Shown here in pieces: positions 4,783-32,370 of a stretch of 32,567 nucleotides of DNA. The position numbers and the translations under genes are program-made. Source of the DNA: a virus; IMG/VR virus record IMGVR_UViG_3300005618_000041, positions 1 through 32,567 of that record, one strand, 5' to 3'. The notes beneath the pieces were generated by a model, which did no database searches, had not been told where the DNA came from, and saw only the letters and a program-made list of their open reading frames with translations. How positions within the stretch are numbered: the first letter of the stretch is position 1; each line of letters begins with the position of its first letter.

Positions 4783-5934
4783 TTAATCGTAGAAACAAGT
4801 AAGATCACACTGGATGAAGTTAGTACCGAACCGGCTTTCATGTTGTGCGAAAGTGGTCTTAGTTCTTTGATCGTAGAACATGTCTATTCTGTCGAGATCG
4901 CTTGAACTTTCAGTACCGATTACAAGGTTTGCAAACTTGCTATTTCCTGTAGTTGTATAGATGGCGAAGTTTGCCAAAGATCCAAACCATGGGTTGTTAG
5001 AGTCAGCCAAGTAGTTATCAGCGATGTAAAGCGGAACTACTGGAATTCCTCTATAGTATAGAACTGGAACATTAAACGAAGCAGGGGTTGAATCTGATCC
5101 GGTTCCGGCCAATCCCAAAGAATCTGCTGAACTAAATCTTCCTCCCAAAGCTCCTGCTCCTTTACCAACTTGTAAGTCGAATTGTAATTGGATCGCTCCA
5201 GGAGTCTTACTTTCATAAGAAGCTAAAAGGTTCTCATACATCGACCCAGTAACCCAGAACACTTTCTGAGTTATATCCAACTGTTTAAGAGTAGGATGTG
5301 CCTGAGTATGGCAAGTCTTAAGTGCGTTAAGGGCTTGATCTGTTGTTAAAACTGCTGCTGTCGTATTAGGAAGGTCATTTCCTACCCTCTTCACGCAATA
5401 AGAAGCAAACGCATCATATAGTTTTACAAAAAGACCATTGATTACGTTATAATCTGCATTTCCAGAAGCAGTATTACCAAAAAGTACAATTCTCCAAATA
5501 TCCCTGCGGATAGCGTCAATCATTTCTGACATCCAAACGTCTCTAACTTGAGCGCTTGCATTATAACCATCCAATCCGTTCTTCACGAAAGTTGGATCGT
5601 TAGTTAATGCTGAAGCGGTAGCGATGAAGTCAGACTTACACCACTGCATATTGGCTTCAAACTTACCTACCGTAATCTTACGATCGGTGAAAGTACCGCC
5701 AGTTGAATATGTAGGACTACAACCTGTAGTAGCTTTTAGAATCTTTTCAAGGTTACCAACCAAGATTAGAAACTCATCAGTACGAATCCCCTGCCTTAGC
5801 GTGAACATATCACTAATAGGCGGTGTGCCTATAGTGTTCTTTCTGAAAAGCTCTAGCGGAAGGTTACCAGGGAAGGTATAACCTGGGCTATAAGTATAAG
5901 AACTGGCGTTCTGAAATTTCTGAATTTTTTCCAT
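4783..5934 (-). CDS. Major capsid protein (HK97-fold type)
   Basis: This 383-residue protein follows the protease-scaffold gene directly, which is the classic place for the major capsid protein. A longer frame begins at 5976, but that stretch overlaps the protease gene. ATG at 5934 (MEKIQKFQNASSYTY) starts one base after the protease stop and is preferred. The protein is rich in beta and helix mixtures with a long central helix (DVWMSEMIDAIRRDIWRIVL) resembling the HK97 spine region, and a late segment VPLYIADNYLADSNNPW. About seven cysteines are present, a high number for a capsid protein. It assembles into the icosahedral head. Confidence 0.75.
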   Translation of the reverse strand: MEKIQKFQNASSYTYSPGYTFPGNLPLELFRKNTIGTPPISDMFTLRQGIRTDEFLILVGNLEKILKATTGCSPTYSTGGTFTDRKITVGKFEANMQWCKSDFIATASALTNDPTFVKNGLDGYNASAQVRDVWMSEMIDAIRRDIWRIVLFGNTASGNADYNVINGLFVKLYDAFASYCVKRVGNDLPNTTAAVLTTDQALNALKTCHTQAHPTLKQLDITQKVFWVTGSMYENLLASYESKTPGAIQLQFDLQVGKGAGALGGRFSSADSLGLAGTGSDSTPASFNVPVLYYRGIPVVPLYIADNYLADSNNPWFGSLANFAIYTTTGNSKFANLVIGTESSSDLDRIDMFYDQRTKTTFAQHESRFGTNFIQCDLTCFYD

Positions 5935-9289: not shown

Positions 9290-11491
9290 TTAAAGCATAT
9301 AAAAATTTACTTCAACGGGTGTACTCGAATCAACAAAATCATCTATAGTATCTACTAAAAAATATCCTATTAAATCTTTTGTTTTTAAATATACAAATTT
9401 ATCATACTTATAGGATTGATAAATAGATTCAGGCAAAAGCATGGTTGCTTTTATAATAGGATTGTTAAAAATATTTGAAATCCTATTTTGATAAATGTTT
9501 TTAATATCAGGATCAAATACACCTGGGATATTTGGATTCTCTAAGGCAAGATTATTTTTATTATTATCGATATTTAATCCGGTCTTAAATTTAGTGAAAT
9601 ATGCATAATCATTAGTAGCCTTTCTGTTATCAACTGATGTAGATGCATCTACATAACCAAATGTAGAATAACCAGGATATAAGTCACTAGCATTAATAGT
9701 TGAATTGGTCAATAAACAAAATCCAACTTCATTGTATTTAATTGTTTGCGTAATTATAAATCCTGTGTCTGTCCCATAAAAAGGGAAAAATAATAATGCT
9801 TTAGTAGAATTTGTTCCGCCTATTCTAAATAACCCGAAATCTACTCCTGAAGAATTAATTACCCTAACGATTTGGCCTCTCTCGAAAACAACTCCACTCG
9901 CAGATGTATCGAATAAACGATATCCAGCTCCTGAGTCTGTTATTGAAGTAAATGCCACTCTTTGATTATCTGTCAATTCAACTAAAGGAACTCTAGCCTG
10001 GTATGAATTATCTATTTCCTTATCGAAGAACAAAGAAGCAAAAGGTAAATTGATAGCAATATTTTTATCGATTAGATTATTATTGGTCACTACGTCTAAA
10101 GATCCGAATGGAGTATTATTTACATTGTTATAAGTAGTTATTTTATTATCAAAAGATAATTGCTTTAAATTAACATAATTATGAGTAGCCGTATTTGAAG
10201 TATAATTATTTACATGTGATATATAATAATTGCTCCAATCTTCAGCATCCTCTAATTTGTATTTACCTATTATATTTAATGTTAATGTCTTTGAATTATT
10301 ATCGAAAGAAGAAACACATCCGAATGTGCTAATCAGGCATTTTATTAAATCAACGCATTTTATTTTAGGAAGAAAATCCGATGGGCTTAAATAATTATCA
10401 TAGGAAACGAAACTTTGTTCCTCTATAGTCCAATTGAGATTTACTGTCGTGGTCGCGCTATCTATTACAATAGTTAATGTATCTCCTTTTAAGACATCGA
10501 CATAACTAATGTATGTAAATGCTGATGTTAATAAGGTTGGCCCATATACATTTGATCCATTTTTTTTTATTGAAAATGTTGGTGTTGATGTAAATGAGTT
10601 AACCGTAATTGTACTTTTTACAGTGCATACTCTATCAGAAGTAAATATCCCTGAAGAAACAAGATTATTATTATCATTTACTTCCGTAAAAGAAGTGTAG
10701 TTACTTGGTATCGATGCTATGACTTGATTTTGACCGGTTAACTTTATAGGCCCGAATCTATTCGGTTTACCTATTAATCCATTAGTAGGAGTTATTATTA
10801 ACGATTTATAAAGGCCATCTTGTAGTAATGTCCCATTAATTTTTATGTCAGTTTGACAACTTATCTCATCAAGAATAGTGCTTAAATAAAAACATGGGTA
10901 AAAATCAAATACTGGTTTAGAGTAAAACTCTGGCGATGAAGGAGCGACACCGCCTACAGTTCCAGGCGCGCTGAATTTACCGCTATACATTATGCTAGTA
11001 GAATTATAAACTGAAAGTCCACGCTCATAATTTGACCACCAATCTACCAACGGGAATACTATTCCATAAGTTTGTCCTGTTGAAGCATTGACATATGTAT
11101 CATTCATCTTAACTGTATAATTTCGTGAAGATGTAACGCCAGTATAATCTAAGTCAGTTATATAAATATCCAATCCTTGTATCCAATCACTATTCCCAGA
11201 AATATAGTAGCAATTTAAAGTATCAGTATCTTCTTGAATTACTATAAATCCACGATCTATGATATTCCCATCCTTAACCCTATTGAAAGCTTGTTTAGTG
11301 GCGGCTATTTGATTTATCATCATAGGCCCATTATAACCAAGAATTTTACGATTTACTGAGTTATTATCTAATGAAAAATTAATGGATGTATCTCCCCGTA
11401 CGGTTCCATCGAATAATGAAATGGATCTTTTCGTAATAGCAAATTCGCCATCAAAATTTAAAGTATCTCCATTGTCATTTATGAATGTCAT
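9290..11491 (-). CDS. Large tail or baseplate structural protein
   Basis: This 733-residue, beta-rich protein (many Asn, Ser, Thr, Tyr and Ile) starts MTFINDNGDTLNFDGEFAIT. Such proteins next to the tape-measure gene in Bacteroidota phages form the distal tail or baseplate. It lacks membrane segments and catalytic motifs that I can recognise. It overlaps the 581-residue gene by ATGA and stops just before the tape-measure start, so the three are co-translated. The N-terminal region could be the conserved tail-attachment part and the rest host-facing; this is a guess from composition. Confidence 0.6.
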   Translation of the reverse strand: MTFINDNGDTLNFDGEFAITKRSISLFDGTVRGDTSINFSLDNNSVNRKILGYNGPMMINQIAATKQAFNRVKDGNIIDRGFIVIQEDTDTLNCYYISGNSDWIQGLDIYITDLDYTGVTSSRNYTVKMNDTYVNASTGQTYGIVFPLVDWWSNYERGLSVYNSTSIMYSGKFSAPGTVGGVAPSSPEFYSKPVFDFYPCFYLSTILDEISCQTDIKINGTLLQDGLYKSLIITPTNGLIGKPNRFGPIKLTGQNQVIASIPSNYTSFTEVNDNNNLVSSGIFTSDRVCTVKSTITVNSFTSTPTFSIKKNGSNVYGPTLLTSAFTYISYVDVLKGDTLTIVIDSATTTVNLNWTIEEQSFVSYDNYLSPSDFLPKIKCVDLIKCLISTFGCVSSFDNNSKTLTLNIIGKYKLEDAEDWSNYYISHVNNYTSNTATHNYVNLKQLSFDNKITTYNNVNNTPFGSLDVVTNNNLIDKNIAINLPFASLFFDKEIDNSYQARVPLVELTDNQRVAFTSITDSGAGYRLFDTSASGVVFERGQIVRVINSSGVDFGLFRIGGTNSTKALLFFPFYGTDTGFIITQTIKYNEVGFCLLTNSTINASDLYPGYSTFGYVDASTSVDNRKATNDYAYFTKFKTGLNIDNNKNNLALENPNIPGVFDPDIKNIYQNRISNIFNNPIIKATMLLPESIYQSYKYDKFVYLKTKDLIGYFLVDTIDDFVDSSTPVEVNFYML

Positions 11492-18056: not shown

Positions 18057-18697
18057 GCTTCATCTAGTAAATACAAATATTCACAACCAGGAGACTTCAT
18101 TTCCTTAAGAACTTCAAGACAAAGATCAGCCGCTTGAATTAGAATTGAATCATTGGCGTACTTGGCGGCGGACTCGGCGGCGGACTTGGCGGCGGACTCG
18201 GCGGCGGACTTGGCGTACTCGGCGGCGGACTCGGCGTACTCGGCGGCGAGTTGTTCACATAAAATTATCGAATCTGGAATATTATCAACTTTTGAAAGTT
18301 TTTCTTTCAGCTCTCCATTAGCTAAATTAGCAGTGATTTTATTGATTATCTTTAATGTGATCTTCGTCGAAAATTCGATTTGATCCAAAACATTTGAGTT
18401 CAATTGTGCAATACCGATTGCTCGCATCCCTTTTGCCCTAGCTTGATTGGAAGACCAATTAGCATCATTTAATCGTATTTTAAAACCTCTTACTGATGAG
18501 CCGACACAGGGAGGATTGTCAGAATGAGGAAGCCCGTAAGCGTAGCAGACAGCAGCTTCGATGCACATTTCACCCGGAACCGGATTACCCATTCCTGATG
18601 AAAGACCACAATCAATTGTCTCTTTTACTTTAGATGCTATTTCTTTAGTTAATTCCATAGGGGTAGTTTGTTTATGAGATATGAATATAGTTTCCAT
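18053..18697 (-). CDS. Alanine-repeat protein with conserved N-terminal domain
   Basis: This 214-residue protein has an N-terminal domain (about residues 15-140) with EMCIEAAVCYAYGLPHSDNP and PCVGSSVRGFKIRLNDANWS. Both are found, as I recall it, in many unrelated phage proteins that also carry alanine repeats. Residues 151-181 are a low-complexity Ala-rich repeat (AAEYAESAAEYAKSAAES and so on), coded by a 12-base unit. Ala-rich helices of this kind also occur in Imm5-like immunity proteins, so a protective or binding role is possible but unproven. It starts by TAATG coupling to the 60-residue gene. A Met at residue 14 is an alternative start. Confidence 0.7.
   Translation of the reverse strand: METIFISHKQTTPMELTKEIASKVKETIDCGLSSGMGNPVPGEMCIEAAVCYAYGLPHSDNPPCVGSSVRGFKIRLNDANWSSNQARAKGMRAIGIAQLNSNVLDQIEFSTKITLKIINKITANLANGELKEKLSKVDNIPDSIILCEQLAAEYAESAAEYAKSAAESAAKSAAESAAKYANDSILIQAADLCLEVLKEMKSPGCEYLYLLDEA
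18153..18250 (-). repeat. Tandem 12-base repeat encoding the Ala-rich segment
   Basis: On the plus strand the unit is gacNcggcggcg-like (gactcggcggcg / gacttggcggcg alternating, with tac replacing gac at some ends). About eight copies or part copies are seen. Because the unit is a multiple of three, frames stay open on both strands, so an overlapping plus-strand frame (18153-18383) looks open but is a shadow. Confidence 0.8.
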
Positions 18698-21027: not shown

Positions 21028-21735
21028 ATGAAAGGAAAATTAATTGCATTCCACGGAAAGCCAGAAATCAAAGAAGAATATTTGAATCGAATTCGAATGC
21101 ACAAAGCTGCCGATCAAATTGTTCACGGACAATATTGGGAAGATGGTAAAGGTTGCGCAGTCGGATGCACTATTCACGGCAATCAACACTATCGATATGA
21201 AACAGAATTAGGCATCCCAAGACATTTAGCTTATCTAGAAGATTCAATTTTTGAAGGACTTTCAAATGGTAATTCGTTAAATTTTCCAGAACAATTTTTA
21301 TCGGCCATTAAAGTTGGTGCTGACCTTTCTTTAGTTTACCATAAATTCATGGTGTGGATGCTTATTCATCCATCGCAGGGGGTTTTAAGATTCGCTGATG
21401 AGTGTGGATCGATAGCAATTAAACGAGTAGCCGAACTTCATCAATTGGAAATTAATGGGGCTGCCGCTGGGGCTGCCGCTTGGGCTGCCGCTAGGGCTGC
21501 CGCTGGGGCTGCCGCTGGGGCTGCCGCTTGGGCTGCCGCTAGGGCTGCCGCTTGGGCTGCCGCTAGGGATGCCGCTTGGGATGCCGCTGGGGCTGCCGCT
21601 TGGGCTGCCGCTAGGGCTGCCGCTTGGGCTGCCGCTTGGGATGCCGCTAGGGATGCCGCTTGGGATGCCGCTGGGGCTGCCGCGCGAATTCAACAACGCG
21701 ATCAATTACTTAAACTTTTATCGGAGGCTATCTAA
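21028..21735 (+). CDS. Alanine-repeat protein with an N-terminal domain
   Basis: This 235-residue protein has an N-terminal domain of about 140 residues. It contains FHGKPEIKEEYLNRIRMHKA, then QIVHGQYWEDGKGCAVGCTI and HYRYETELGIPRHLAYLEDS. Residues 144-219 are 19 tandem four-residue units of the form G/W/R-A/D-A-A, which would make an extended helix. The plan (small conserved domain plus Ala-rich helix) recurs in phage proteins and in Imm5-type immunity proteins, but the role is not known. The C-terminus after the repeat (RIQQRDQLLKLLSEAI) is basic then amphipathic. It is a different domain from the leftward alanine-repeat gene. Confidence 0.7.
   Translation: MKGKLIAFHGKPEIKEEYLNRIRMHKAADQIVHGQYWEDGKGCAVGCTIHGNQHYRYETELGIPRHLAYLEDSIFEGLSNGNSLNFPEQFLSAIKVGADLSLVYHKFMVWMLIHPSQGVLRFADECGSIAIKRVAELHQLEINGAAAGAAAWAAARAAAGAAAGAAAWAAARAAAWAAARDAAWDAAGAAAWAAARAAAWAAAWDAARDAAWDAAGAAARIQQRDQLLKLLSEAI
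21457..21684 (+). repeat. 19 tandem 12-base units (NGG-GMT-GCC-GCT)
   Basis: There are nineteen units of twelve bases. The first base of the NGG codon varies as g, t or a (Gly, Trp or Arg). The second codon is gct or gat (Ala or Asp). The other bases are nearly fixed; the last unit ends gcg. With no stop in any frame, two shadow frames (GLPLGLPL on plus, SGSPSG on minus) look open. Confidence 0.92.
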
Positions 21736-21748
21736 TGCTTAATACCCT

Positions 21749-22735
21749 ATGGAAACACAACTCCAAATAACACAAAAAGAATTTTACAACAATATCCGCC
21801 CGATGTGGATAGAACAATCTGGCTTAGATGATTCAGCATTCGCCAGGGAAATTTCTTTTGCAATTCAACACGCGACCAAAAATCCTTATCTGAAACAATG
21901 CACACAAAATTCAGTTCTTAGGGCTGTCATGAATGTGGCTCAAGTAGGGTTAACGCTCAATCCAGTTTCAAAATACGCTTATCTTATCCCGCGCTACAAC
22001 GGACAAAGTAAAGAGCTTGAATGCGTTTTAGATCCGTCATATATCGGACTTGCAAAGCTACTTACTGATTCAGGTTCCGTTACTTCGATTGAATGTCATA
22101 TTATCCATGAAGGTGACGATTGTTTAGTTGATTTAGCTTGCGAGCAAAAGATACTTAAACATACTCCATACTTTTTAAACAAGAAAGTTAAGGGTGGAAT
22201 ACTTGGAGTCTATTCGGTTGCCATTCTTCCCGATAAATCGAAGCACGTTGAGGTTATGTCCTTTGTCGAGCTAAATGAAATACGCGACCGTAGCGAGTCT
22301 TACAAGGCATTCAAGGATAATAAAATAAAGGCTTGCACATGGGTAACCGATGAGGGTGAAATGTGCCGAAAGACTGTTATCAAAAGACATTCAAAATACT
22401 TGCCTAAATCTGAACGAACGGCTAAATTAGAAAGGGCAATTGAACTCGATAACGAAACAAACGGATTCAGAGAACCTATGGATTTCGGAATGTTACAGTT
22501 CCTTGAAACTTCGATCGATAGATCGACAATTGATCCCGACCGTAAAGCAAAGCTAAAGGTTCAAATGAGTAAATGGGAATACAAATCTGATGCCTATGAA
22601 CTCATGAAAGAACTTGGCGAATCAATGCCTATCATCGGAGTTCATACTACACCGCATACAGTTTCAGAAATAGGTGAGGCCGCAAGGAACGCTGCCGACC
22701 GTGATGATTATTATGTAGACCAAAGAAAGAAATGA
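21749..22735 (+). CDS. recT: RecT-family single-strand annealing protein
   Basis: This 328-residue protein begins METQLQITQKEFYNNIRPMW. It matches the RecT/Redβ-type recombinase family by IQHATKNPYLKQCTQNSVLR, VAQVGLTLNPVSKYAYLIPR, VLDPSYIGLAKLLTDSGSV and GGILGVYSVAILPD. It pairs complementary single strands and supports recombination and replication restart in the phage. No exonuclease partner (RecE or Cas4-like) is recognised in the neighbouring genes. It overlaps the next small gene by ATGA and opens a run of tightly packed genes up to 24792. Confidence 0.92.
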   Translation: METQLQITQKEFYNNIRPMWIEQSGLDDSAFAREISFAIQHATKNPYLKQCTQNSVLRAVMNVAQVGLTLNPVSKYAYLIPRYNGQSKELECVLDPSYIGLAKLLTDSGSVTSIECHIIHEGDDCLVDLACEQKILKHTPYFLNKKVKGGILGVYSVAILPDKSKHVEVMSFVELNEIRDRSESYKAFKDNKIKACTWVTDEGEMCRKTVIKRHSKYLPKSERTAKLERAIELDNETNGFREPMDFGMLQFLETSIDRSTIDPDRKAKLKVQMSKWEYKSDAYELMKELGESMPIIGVHTTPHTVSEIGEAARNAADRDDYYVDQRKK

Positions 22736-23962: not shown

Positions 23963-24153
23963 TGAGACACATTAACAACGCAAGCTCATCAGGGGATACC
24001 AGCAGGATTCATCCATATTTAACTCAATCAGGCTGGCTTAGTCGGCTCCATGACTTTGAACGCGAAGGCAAATCAGAGGCTTTAAAATCAAGAGTTAAGG
24101 CTATAATAGAAGGCTTTAGAGACATTCCTAATTACTTACCATCAAACAAATGA
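23962..24153 (+). CDS. Hypothetical small protein
   Basis: This 63-residue protein begins MRHINNASSSGDTSRIHPYL and has a basic helix (GKSEALKSRVKAIIEGFRD). Its start overlaps the preceding stop by one base and its end overlaps the DUF551 start by ATGA. No family is recognised. Confidence 0.5.
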   Translation: MRHINNASSSGDTSRIHPYLTQSGWLSRLHDFEREGKSEALKSRVKAIIEGFRDIPNYLPSNK

Positions 24154-24383
24154 AATGGATAAGCGTCAAAGACAGACTACCTGAAATAATTCAGGATCAT
24201 GAAAAAGAAATTTCAGAATCAATACCATGTATTGTGCTTCTTTCAAATAGAGAAGTTTATAAAGCAAGATTAGCGCATTGGTTTGAGGATGATTTCGTCA
24301 AAGAAAAATTCTATTGGTATTTTACTGATTCGTATGAAACAGCTGATACAGTTACGCATTGGACTGAATTTAAATTACCATGA
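24150..24383 (+). CDS. DUF551 protein, copy 1
   Basis: This 77-residue DUF551 protein has an N-terminal MKWISVKDRLPEIIQDHEKE, an internal VLLSNREVYKARLAHWFED and a C-terminal TVTHWTEFKLP. All are standard for the family. DUF551 proteins are small and common in phages and prophages, and their function is not established. A second member lies at 29733-29945, so the window holds two diverged paralogues. It is coupled to both neighbours by ATGA. Confidence 0.85.
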   Translation: MKWISVKDRLPEIIQDHEKEISESIPCIVLLSNREVYKARLAHWFEDDFVKEKFYWYFTDSYETADTVTHWTEFKLP

Positions 24384-24592
24384 TTAAGCCATATCTTTTA
24401 ACATCGACACTGAAAAAAGCCATTGAGCAAAATAGATTCATTTTAGTAAGACATTTTAATGGATACTTGTACGGAATAAATTGTAAAATTCCTTTTCGGT
24501 GGCTACAAGATAATGAAGAAACAGTTATCATTGGCTGGCGATCTTGTTCCTTTCATGAATATTTAACTTACAAAATACCATTCACAAAATGA
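24380..24592 (+). CDS. Hypothetical small protein
   Basis: This 70-residue protein begins MIKPYLLTSTLKKAIEQNRF and includes HFNGYLYGINCKIPFRWLQD. It is rich in aromatic residues. It has no clear domain and is coupled by ATGA to both neighbours. It may form part of the same functional set as the DUF551 protein, but that is a guess from position only. Confidence 0.5.
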   Translation: MIKPYLLTSTLKKAIEQNRFILVRHFNGYLYGINCKIPFRWLQDNEETVIIGWRSCSFHEYLTYKIPFTK

Positions 24593-24792
24593 CCCCATTG
24601 ATTAACTCTACCCCTCATCAAGACCTAAGAGATTGGAGAGAACTCGATAAAAGAGTCCGCACATTTAAAGAATCACAGTGGCAGAAAAATTTTAACTTCA
24701 ATCCGCTAATTGCTTTTGTTTTTACTTGCTTAGTAGGGGCAATGTTTGCTATAGCACTTCTTTTTTTAACTAGCTTAATTGTTGTGAAATAG
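24589..24792 (+). CDS. Small membrane protein
   Basis: This 67-residue protein has one C-terminal membrane segment of about 25 residues (LIAFVFTCLVGAMFAIALLF, residues about 40-59 and beyond) after a soluble, charged N-terminal half (LRDWRELDKRVRTFKESQWQ). It probably inserts with the N-terminus in the cytoplasm. It could interact with a cytoplasmic partner or act as a small host-inhibiting protein, but there is no direct support. Confidence 0.65.
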   Translation: MTPLINSTPHQDLRDWRELDKRVRTFKESQWQKNFNFNPLIAFVFTCLVGAMFAIALLFLTSLIVVK

Positions 24793-25200: not shown

Positions 25201-25431
25201 ATGATTTCATTCAAACAATATTCAAATGCCTTTTATGATGGATATCATGTAAAATGTGATGAAATAAAAGGCATTATCAGTTCAGGAAGATGTAAACAAA
25301 TTTATGATGAAATGAAAAAAAAGCAACACGGAGGCAAGCGTAAAGGCTCAGGCCGACCAAAGAAAGAAAAGACGGTGGTGATGCGTATTCCTAAATCAAA
25401 AGTTAAAGAAATTAAAGCATTGATAAAATGA
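25201..25431 (+). CDS. Basic DNA-binding-type protein (AT-hook-like)
   Basis: This 76-residue protein has a C-terminal basic stretch, HGGKRKGSGRPKKEKTVVMR, which includes a GRP core of AT-hook type. It is followed by IPKSKVKEIKALIK, which resembles a ribbon-helix-helix half. The N-terminal part (MISFKQYSNAFYDGYHVKC) is not recognised. It follows a terminator and overlaps the next short frame by ATGA. A DNA-binding role is likely from the basic content. Confidence 0.6.
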   Translation: MISFKQYSNAFYDGYHVKCDEIKGIISSGRCKQIYDEMKKKQHGGKRKGSGRPKKEKTVVMRIPKSKVKEIKALIK

Positions 25432-25469
25432 GGCTTCGTAATAACACCATACTCCCCAACCTAAAATGA
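25428..25469 (+). other. Mini-ORF MRLRNNTILPNLK, N-terminal copy of gene 25992-26267
   Basis: This is a 13-residue frame (MRLRNNTILPNLK, then TGA) with ATGA overlaps at both ends. The same 13 residues open the 25992-26267 gene, but 11 of 39 bases differ, all at silent or same-residue codon changes. It may be a leftover of a gene split by insertion of the methyltransferase gene, or a short leader peptide. Too short for a gene caller. Confidence 0.6.
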
Positions 25470-25990
25470 GTCATCAAAATCAATTGAAGCCAGAAGATAA
25501 CAAATTCCATAAAGGAAATGGAGTTGATAAGAAGCACTATTGGCTCACTCCACCCAAATTAATGGAATCAATGCAGCTTGAATTTCAATTCGATGCTGAT
25601 GCATGTCCATATCCTAAGCCAGAAAATTTTGACGGGCTTACTGATAATTTCGAAGGTAAAAAATGTGTGTACATGAATCCTCCGTTTGGGTCAATAATTC
25701 ATAAAGGTAAAAAGAAAGGCCCTACAGCATGGGCAAGACAAGCGATTAGACTTAAAGAGAATGGTATTAAAGTGGTTATGGTTTATCCGATTGATAAATG
25801 GATTCTAATGATGATAGCCAATGGCGCAAAGATTACAAATCTAGGCGATGTTAAATGGTGCGCCACTGAAGACGGATCGGCAGGAAAAGGAACCGGAAGA
25901 CATATTGCACAATTTGTTTTGGATCCAAAATCAACACATGAAACAGTTTTGGATGAATTACTAGATTCTAATGATACTATTATCGGATGA
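25466..25990 (+). CDS. Phage DNA N6-adenine methyltransferase (Dam-like)
   Basis: This 174-residue protein begins MSHQNQLKPEDNKFHKGNGV. YWLTPPKLMESMQLEFQFDA and CVYMNPPFGSIIHKGKKKGP contain the catalytic NPPF motif (residues about 71-74), as in phage N6-adenine methyltransferases of the Dam family. Later, VVMVYPIDKWILMMIANGAK and HIAQFVLDPKS complete the fold. It likely protects phage DNA from host restriction or controls phage genes. The gene has no cognate nuclease nearby. It is flanked by two copies of the same 13-residue coding sequence. Confidence 0.85.
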   Translation: MSHQNQLKPEDNKFHKGNGVDKKHYWLTPPKLMESMQLEFQFDADACPYPKPENFDGLTDNFEGKKCVYMNPPFGSIIHKGKKKGPTAWARQAIRLKENGIKVVMVYPIDKWILMMIANGAKITNLGDVKWCATEDGSAGKGTGRHIAQFVLDPKSTHETVLDELLDSNDTIIG

Positions 25991-25991
25991 T

Positions 25992-26267
25992 ATGCGATTA
26001 AGAAATAATACTATTTTGCCCAACCTAAAAAGAAAGGCTATGACTCCGGTAATTTATGAACGTATCGATAGTAACAATGTGAGGATAGGAACGAAGTGGT
26101 TTTGCTATAGGCGCGGCATTGATATTTTAAACCCGATGAAACCAGGAGTAATGATTTTTGACGGCCAAGACAAACGCTTTGTTTCGAATGATTGGTATAA
26201 TCTAAACACCTCAGGAACATACGAAGAATTTGAAAGGTCTTTTGAATTATGGATTAAAAGTTTATAA
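25992..26267 (+). CDS. Hypothetical protein with the MRLRNNTILPNLK start
   Basis: This 91-residue protein is called from ATG 25992 (MRLRNNTILPNLKRKAMTPV). A longer frame starts at 25971 inside the methyltransferase gene, but the repeated MRLRNNTILPNLK fixes the start. It has a middle NVRIGTKWFCYRRGIDILNP and VMIFDGQDKRFVSNDWY, a compact mixed fold with no recognised family. It is the possibly restored full-length version of the short copy at 25428-25469. Confidence 0.6.
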   Translation: MRLRNNTILPNLKRKAMTPVIYERIDSNNVRIGTKWFCYRRGIDILNPMKPGVMIFDGQDKRFVSNDWYNLNTSGTYEEFERSFELWIKSL

Positions 26268-27187: not shown

Positions 27188-27390
27188 AAATTTTCTCCTT
27201 ACTTCAGGCATGGTTTTTACAGTGAAAAAAAATATTTTAGATAAACGATGATTTTGTATTGGGGATTTATTAAGTTTGTTTTGTCAAAGTGAATTTGATG
27301 CGTGATGTCCGGCACGGAAAAAGAAATTTAAAAGCCTTTTGAGGCCAAACCTGCGGACACGGGGGCGGCATCAAGAGGCATTTTTGTTTT
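27188..27390 (+). promoter_or_regulatory. GC-rich structured leader region
   Basis: There is no gene here. The first half is AT-rich and includes a possible promoter (tttgttttgtc to gaatttg). The second half is GC-rich and can fold: gatgc (27297-27301) with gcatc (27368-27372), nested around tgtccg (27306-27311) with cggaca (27354-27359), and an inner gcct / aggc hairpin (27334-27345). It precedes a replication-type operon and may be a 5' leader RNA or part of an origin. Confidence 0.4.
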
Positions 27391-29524: not shown

Positions 29525-29752
29525 ATGGAAACAGTACAAGTCGGATTCCAGATTAACATTCAGATTAATTGTGAGACTGAGCAGGAAATTTTAACGCATC
29601 TATCGGTGATTAGAAGCAACTTGAAAAAGTATATCAATCGTGGTGATGTGGCTGGCGAAATTTCAGTTGTGCCAGTTCATTTCGAAGATGAGAATTGTTA
29701 CGGTTCACACGAAGTAAATATTATCGCTGATTATGGAATGGATAAGCATTAA
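29525..29752 (+). CDS. Hypothetical small protein
   Basis: This 75-residue protein begins METVQVGFQINIQINCETEQ and has a beta-alpha-beta plan (strand, helix QEILTHLSVIRSNLKKYINR, strand). There is no recognised family. Its end overlaps the second DUF551 gene by 20 bases. Confidence 0.55.
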   Translation: METVQVGFQINIQINCETEQEILTHLSVIRSNLKKYINRGDVAGEISVVPVHFEDENCYGSHEVNIIADYGMDKH

Positions 29753-29945
29753 AGAAAGATTGCCAGAAGAGAATGTTTATGAAGTATTGGTTAAGGTGGA
29801 TGAACCATTTTTTGGCACATCTACTCCACGGGCGATTGTAGCTTATTATTCTGAAGAATTTTCGCAGTGGAGATGTGAATTAACCTCAAAAGAAGTTTAT
29901 CATGTTACCCATTGGATGTATTTACCAGATTTCCCGAAAGGTTAG
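29733..29945 (+). CDS. DUF551 protein, copy 2
   Basis: This 70-residue protein has the same family signature as the 24150 gene (MEWISIKERLPEENVYEVLV, then HVTHWMYLPDFPK). It has the start MxWISxKxRLP and end THWMYLP of DUF551. The paralogue is diverged from copy 1. It is separated from the next gene by a gap that holds a third copy of the promoter-like box. Confidence 0.85.
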   Translation: MEWISIKERLPEENVYEVLVKVDEPFFGTSTPRAIVAYYSEEFSQWRCELTSKEVYHVTHWMYLPDFPKG

Positions 29946-31645: not shown

Positions 31646-32125
31646 TTAAAAAAGATCAAATGGTAGATATCTTGGATTACCTTCCTGATCGTGATAAGCT
31701 CTTAAAACTTCGCCACGATTTTTATTTAAAGACTTACTAACGTGTACCCATGCCGGTTCTGACTTGTCCCCGAATTCCCATATTATTTGATCGAATCCGA
31801 AAACTTCTTTTTGGCTTAGGACATATTTAAAAAGCTCTGCATTTCTCCCTAGTAAAGACATATCTATAGCTTCTCCTTTCATATGGCTACTAGTCTTGCT
31901 TGATCCTGGTGTTGAATTATTGAGCGCTGGCGACCTGAAAAAAGAGTTAATATGTATAGGCCCGAAATGATCTCTCAAAGGATCGTAAATTTGTAAAGCA
32001 GCATATTTCATCGCTGATAGTTGATGTTCATCCGGAGTATTAGGAATGTCCAAGCGTGATGCAGTTTCACTACGAATAGCTTCTCCATAACTAACCCATT
32101 TAGAAATAAGATCGGTTAAGTTCAT
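31646..32125 (-). CDS. Endolysin, M15 peptidase (D-Ala-D-Ala type)
   Basis: This 159-residue protein has the M15 zinc-peptidase motif: INSFFRSPALN near residues 59-69, then SSHMKGEAIDMS (His81 and Asp88) and AWVHVS (His128). A candidate catalytic acid lies in IIWEFGD (about 114-120). It would cut D-amino-acid peptide links in the cell wall. No signal peptide is seen, so it needs the holin. The start is coupled by ATGA to the upstream small membrane protein gene. Confidence 0.88.
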   Translation of the reverse strand: MNLTDLISKWVSYGEAIRSETASRLDIPNTPDEHQLSAMKYAALQIYDPLRDHFGPIHINSFFRSPALNNSTPGSSKTSSHMKGEAIDMSLLGRNAELFKYVLSQKEVFGFDQIIWEFGDKSEPAWVHVSKSLNKNRGEVLRAYHDQEGNPRYLPFDLF

Positions 32126-32370
32126 AGCTTTTTAGTTCGTTCAAGAAATGTTGAATTCAATCCCTTTTGTTCTTCCACAAATGAATGAAAGTCTTGTTTA
32201 ATTTGCTTCACATCATCCTTTATCGAATTAATACTTGAAAGTATAAACCCGAAAATTACACTTACTAATGTAGTACAAAGCCCTATCACTAGATAAAGTG
32301 TAAAATCGGCAGAAAGGCCACCGTCTTTAGTGATTGCCTCTACTAGTAAGGTAAGTATATTGTGCAACAT
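32122..32370 (-). CDS. Small membrane protein in the lysis module
   Basis: This 82-residue protein begins MLHNILTLLVEAITKDGGLS, then has a membrane segment (FTLYLVIGLCTTLVSVIFGF, about residues 23-42) and a charged helical tail (INSIKDDVKQIKQDFHSFVE) with coiled-coil tendency. It is ATGA-coupled to the endolysin. Such proteins in lysis modules act as holin-like, antiholin or spanin-type factors; I cannot decide which. Confidence 0.65.
   Translation of the reverse strand: MLHNILTLLVEAITKDGGLSADFTLYLVIGLCTTLVSVIFGFILSSINSIKDDVKQIKQDFHSFVEEQKGLNSTFLERTKKL

Follow-up and report, generated by a model that had tools for sequence, protein, structure and literature searches.

A conserved mini-cistron in a hypervariable phage locus and its possible role as a translational leader

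In lambdoid phages, short conserved stretches of DNA, known as boundary or linker sequences, border exchangeable modules. In the usual bicistronic design of synthetic biology, a Shine-Dalgarno (SD) sequence lies inside the leader. Leaders of this kind are short cistrons that are set before different genes for reliable initiation (PMC5995908). In class 1 integrons, a constant 11-codon ORF of attI1, ORF-11, drives the expression of first-cassette genes, with a stop that is determined by the cassette (PMC8876359). Moreover, measurements in Haloferax and E. coli have shown that ATGA stop/start overlaps couple translation (PMC6728339). How newly acquired phage genes are expressed immediately in hosts without SD pairing is an open question, and a short constant cistron that is kept while both of its neighbours change would, if true, be a natural and testable answer. 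In the current study, a virus record of 32,567 bases (hereafter the window, meaning the whole stretch analysed) was found to contain a conserved coding mini-cistron within a hypervariable phage locus, and this is a real, non-trivial feature. Such a cistron would also be a warning that mini-ORFs of 12-14 codons, which are missed at the usual length cut-offs, can belong to the best-conserved parts of a variable phage locus.

Two copies of a 13-codon module

As listed in Table 1, the peptide MRLRNNTILPNLK is coded twice in the window, once by a short frame closed by TGA (copy A) and once at the start of a longer gene (copy B, gene B). Codon by codon (A/B), the two copies read AGG/CGA, CTT/TTA and CGT/AGA at codons 2 to 4 and AAC/AAT, ACC/ACT, ATA/ATT and CTC/TTG at codons 6 to 9; they share the ATG, the AAT at codon 5 and the closing CCC AAC CTA AAA, after which copy A has TGA and copy B continues with AGA AAG. 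Thus, 11 of 39 bases are unlike and 0 of 13 residues, all changes being silent, and the stretches of exact homology are short (12-13 nt). When 11 random changes were dealt over codons 2-13, the probability of an unchanged peptide was 1.1e-8, which rules out chance as the source of the likeness between A and B (p about 1e-8). A preliminary description of this DNA had located both copies, had reported 11 changed bases with full protein identity and had argued that chance could not give such silent divergence; each of these points was borne out.

Table 1. Features of the locus in the window
Feature	Coordinates	Strand	Basis or remark
Small membrane-protein-like gene, upstream anchor of the slot	24589..24792	+	Present in all relatives
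Upstream ORF with GSGRPKK motif	25201..25431	+	TGA stop supplied by the ATGA of copy A
Copy A, 13-codon mini-cistron MRLRNNTILPNLK plus stop (putative leader module)	25428..25469	+	Kin of A in four further phages
Gene X of the window, Dam-like DNA adenine methyltransferase	25466..25990	+	PF05869 and phrog_111 matches
Second module copy (copy B), in frame with gene B	25992..26030	+	Sequence comparison
Gene B, orphan 91-aa protein MRLRNNTILPNLKRKAMTPVIYERI...	25992..26267	+	Homologues in L004 and L071; decayed remnant in L080
Non-coding element, downstream border of the slot	27264..27333	.	Partial match in the window

Because ATGA overlaps chain it to its neighbours at both ends, copy A stands as a separate 13-codon cistron. 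Its AGG codon is partly forced, since the upstream ORF takes its TGA stop from the ATG together with the AGR codon behind it. At its other end, the TGA of copy A is overlapped by the ATG of the methyltransferase at 25466. This gene X of the window was matched by PF05869 with an E-value of 5.7e-5, which is below the curated cut-off, and by phrog_111 (E=7.8e-11).

Gene B has an open frame from as far upstream as 25971, but 25992 is the start that it has in common with its relatives. No Pfam, PHROG or NCBIfam match was obtained for gene B in the window. Its assignment to PHROG 18539 was considered and rejected: the match was weak and came from one homologue only, the others failed to reproduce it, and the same PHROG also scored in unrelated control genomes. 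Comparison of gene B with Campylobacter phage gave best matches of only E=3, a profile search of genome contigs yielded no relative, and one further contig (L001) had only the seed peptide in common with it. The AlphaFold model had a mean pLDDT of 53.6 (below 50 for residues 1-14), and Foldseek returned nothing under 0.3. With respect to initiation context, the ATG at 25992 was poor (7th percentile) compared with an internal ATG at 26040 (MTPVIYERI), which was good (71st percentile), so that the module may have a partial leader role at gene B as well.

Conservation and borders of the module in related phages

The module was found in five distinct phages only, counting that of the window. L071 (G001; IMGVR_UViG_3300005841_000018) and L080 (G003; IMGVR_UViG_3300044983_000039) were found by pattern scans, and L110/L111 were reached via the small membrane-protein-like anchor gene; L110 and L111 come from separate metagenomes and are identical in sequence in the slot region. 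L004 (G002; IMGVR_UViG_3300012984_000030) has the closest relative of the window methyltransferase (76% identical). An additional contig, L112, stops short of the slot. The exact 13-residue peptide had no match elsewhere in viral contigs, and the 28 pattern matches in genome contigs were without gene context and chance-like. Parts of the window terminase are nearest to Flavobacterium and other Bacteroidetes phages, and the host group of these phages is probably Bacteroidetes.

Three of the related contigs share one order, namely a gene, a short MRLRN mini-ORF (A), a gene X, and the copy that starts B. In L004, a methyltransferase is followed by A (MRLRNESITLNL, then stop), by a 110-aa gene whose 3′ end overlaps codons 1-4 of B, which forces part of the recoding there, and by B (MRLMNNTITLNLKRKSLPPVLYERIDSNNVRIGTKWF...). 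The corresponding order in L071 is a C5 methyltransferase, A (MRLRNESITLNLKK, then stop), a 71-aa gene and B (MRLRNDLLTLNLKRKSLPPVLYERI...), and that in L080 is an N4/N6 methyltransferase, A (MRLRNESITLNLNK, then stop), an 85-aa gene and a decayed B that retains only its start and end. In L110/L111, a methyltransferase precedes a single module copy in frame with an unrelated 159-aa gene (MRLRNDSITLKPKEETMKTIYNCLIL...), and the stretch covered has no B; compared with the other phages, the module tail has one extra base there, and the frame is shifted by it. Gene X was therefore unrelated across all five phages (the methyltransferase, genes of 110, 71 and 85 aa, and the 159-aa in-frame fusion), and the genes preceding A were likewise unrelated and of different kinds. 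An empty site, that is B without A and X, was not found among the five phages.

Copy A was identical at 36 of 36 nt in G001, G002 and G003, among which the nearby anchor gene is 80-91% identical. When the loci were compared by BLAST, A appeared as an island of 46-59 nt flanked by unrelated stretches, and where the upstream genes were unrelated, DNA identity opened exactly at the ATG of A. The A-type codons AGR CTT CGN were found at the A position in 5/5 phages, which indicates that A is older than its present neighbour; as A-type and B-type copies keep their codon signatures and order, the A/B duplication is also older than the present X genes. On the sequences compared, A is an old mini-cistron that stays fixed while the slot around it is hypervariable, and we infer from the five arrangements that X was swapped while A and B stayed. 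The identity of A in G001, G002 and G003 could nevertheless come from recent exchange, not selection.

At the protein level, the A and B peptides of the relatives were unlike at 3 of 11 residues. Residues 9-10 of A and B agreed genome by genome, being LP in both copies of the window and TL in both copies of L004 and of L071, and A stopped after codon 12, 13 or 14, depending on the phage. Given these differences between A and B, the variable peptide end, and the silent sites common to three phages, no single constraint fits every copy. That the window peptide was kept through 11 silent changes points either to a functional peptide or to two copies that were both full-gene starts until recently.

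Downstream, the slot is bordered by an element of 44-60 nt that is 100% identical among four relatives (G001 33974-34031; G002 5071-5114; G003 10899-10956; L110 4540-4599) and has a promoter-like TAnnTTTG end in the relatives.

Several other observations were made in these phages. The GRPKK gene at 25318-25431 of the window has 84% DNA identity to G001 32098-32211, up to the exact ATGA junction; past 25431, the window continues into copy A and G001 into the membrane-protein-like gene. The final 14 nt are common to the unrelated C5 (L071, G001 33005-33022) and N4/N6 (L080, G003 10317-10334) methyltransferases, whose proteins close with QLSLI, resembling a tail that binds the sliding clamp; in L110, the last residues of the methyltransferase are SQLKLFA. 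Short tandem-repeat genes that code for Ala-rich or Ser/Val/Asp-rich proteins were seen in the window (21458-21683, 18155-18248) and in L004 (1-949, 4965-5090). The repeat unit in the window is 12 bp, with about 19 copies, and similar short repeats occur in several phages of the group. Lastly, the proteins of window positions 24150-24383 and 29733-29945 have nearly the same first 12 residues (MKWISVKDRLPE and MEWISIKERLPE) and are dissimilar over the rest in an ungapped comparison; we presume that they are possibly DUF551-like paralogues.

A putative leader cistron and alternative readings

The ATG of A overlaps the upstream stop as ATGA in 5/5 phages. The stop of A overlaps the start of X in three of the four phages that have one and lies 3 nt before X in the other, the fifth phage having the in-frame fusion. 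Four genomes were examined for coding-strand mini-ORFs of 12-14 codons that link two genes in this manner, and in each it was A. When 228 gene starts were examined, SD-like motifs preceded only 7.5% of them, and the nucleotide A was enriched at positions -13 to -11, -5 and -3. A-enriched initiation positions have been measured for Flavobacterium, and the start-context pattern found here agrees with those initiation rules (PMC6847099). The starts of X within the module fell at the 45th-91st percentile of gene starts for context. ATGA overlaps were frequent throughout the whole operon, so that coupling is not special to A. A programmed frameshift that would fuse A with X was rejected, because the slippery codon is not conserved among members (AAA TGA is possible in the window and L071 and is absent in L080, with AAC AAA TGA, and L004, with CTT TAA). 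A conserved RNA structure or attenuator was likewise rejected, as folds were unlike between phages (z from -1.7 to +0.5), and an Rfam search gave no match.

The ATGA chaining, the bridging mini-ORF, the SD-poor starts, and the ordinary context that X receives from the tail of A led us to read A as a leader. We give an even chance to the reading that copy A is a reusable leader cistron coupling translation into the slot gene, its translation and the coupling being deduced from the arrangement of the genes. A constant leader of 12-14 codons would head a hypervariable accessory-gene slot in an early operon. Ribosomes ending the upstream gene would reinitiate at A via the ATGA overlap and, once A had been translated and its stop reached, would do so again at the ATGA-overlapping start of the resident X, while the A-rich 3′ end of A would also provide the initiation context used by SD-poor phages. 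Fused in frame, the same segment begins gene B, as well as a different gene in L110/L111. The duplication of A and B is old; X would have been exchanged several times with A and B retained, and leader function would presumably be the reason for keeping A. Besides the frequency of ATGA overlaps in the operon, the small number of phages and the possible recent exchange among G001, G002 and G003, two findings weigh against this reading: a leader does not need a particular peptide, yet A and B of the window share 13 residues despite 11 silent changes, and the L110 module is in frame, without a stop. A broader proposal, which we consider unlikely, is that SD-poor Bacteroidetes phages carry an "expression socket", a constant mini-cistron under both DNA- and peptide-level constraint that would serve the immediate translation of exchanged genes and perhaps also as an exchange joint, like an integron leader without the integron.

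As an alternative, A could be a functional micropeptide acting in trans like the N-terminus of B, for example by binding the same partner or by competing with B. All 11 A/B differences in the window are silent and residues 9-10 covary within genomes (LP/LP; TL/TL), as such a peptide would predict; we nonetheless regard it as unlikely, because A and B are 3/11 unlike in the relatives, the end is variable (the stop comes after codon 12, 13 or 14, and the frame is shifted to TLKPK in L110), and even the silent sites of A are common to three phages. Equally doubtful in our judgment is that the module acts chiefly as a joint for recombination, its short boundary homology being retained for its use in exchange. 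The 36-59 nt island of near-identity with unrelated genes on either side, the match of the GRPKK gene that also breaks exactly at ATGA, and a putative RecT-like gene in the window (21749-22735, judged by its sequence) are consistent with such a joint, whereas the island is bordered by a start codon and mostly by a stop-start overlap, the frame is kept, and A and B have diverged within the genome to an exact homology of 12-13 nt in the window. A recombination joint could also act together with the leader. We think it quite improbable that A is a passive relic, left as the 5′ end when X took the place of the body of a tandem paralogue of B (or of an L110-like fused gene). An A-type start is indeed fused to a whole gene in L110, B is decaying to its start and end in L080, and purely silent divergence in the window would be expected had the two copies both begun genes until recently; however, a relic should drift, yet three phages whose neighbouring genes are unrelated carry an identical A, and in 4/4 phages having a stop, that stop is tied to the start that follows.

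The preliminary description had proposed that the methyltransferase landed behind codon 13 of gene B, bringing or rebuilding its start in other codons, a reading that we now find barely credible. The arrangement in the window, taken alone, suits it, and a foreign gene does lie between two copies of a gene start. The methyltransferase is not the cause of the duplication, however, because its homologue lies upstream of A in L004 and the relatives have the duplication around other genes, L071 and L080 with yet other genes between the copies. That the methyltransferase carries the module with it was also rejected: 63 viral loci were matched, none with the module in front, and only L004 has it, behind the gene. 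The suggestion that recoding allowed an escape from re-cutting, as for homing-type elements with a site-specific nuclease, found no support, the slot occupants being a methyltransferase and small unknown proteins, none of them an endonuclease. Related copies unlike in protein had been named as evidence against insertion, and this was seen in part (3/11 residues in the relatives). The alternative of a conserved short leader used twice, also given in the preliminary description, agrees with our preferred reading of A as a leader, and the general idea of gene exchange between two copies of a gene start is retained.

Comparison with known systems

Nothing comparable to a phage mini-cistron linker emerged from literature searches, and profile scans of the slot genes revealed nothing integron-like. 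The lambdoid boundary sequences differ in that the phage module is itself a reading frame, bordered at its own start codon. In termination-reinitiation coupling, the same kind of start/stop overlap is present (here ATGA at the start of A in 5/5 phages and at its end in 3/4 with a stop), but there two ordinary genes are coupled (PMC6728339), whereas here a reused mini-cistron would link changing genes. The bicistronic-design leaders likewise consist of a short leader cistron ahead of different genes; they are engineered, whereas the phage module is natural and SD-poor (PMC5995908). If true, the leader module would be a natural counterpart of the engineered one.

The closest resemblance is to ORF-11 (and ORF-18) of class 1 integron attI1, likewise a constant mini-ORF, about a dozen codons long, ahead of a slot of changing genes (PMC8876359); in the phages, a constant short ORF precedes five unrelated X genes in five phages. 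In both cases, the inserted gene determines the stop, which makes the length variable, the downstream gene is near or overlapping (an overlap, 3 nt, or the fusion in L110), and genes with weak initiation signals are, or in the phages would be, served. This is a likeness rather than membership, because no integrase or attC was seen among the slot genes scanned. Unlike ORF-11, the phage module is without an SD motif, a further copy of it is fused to gene B, and its reuse is presumed.
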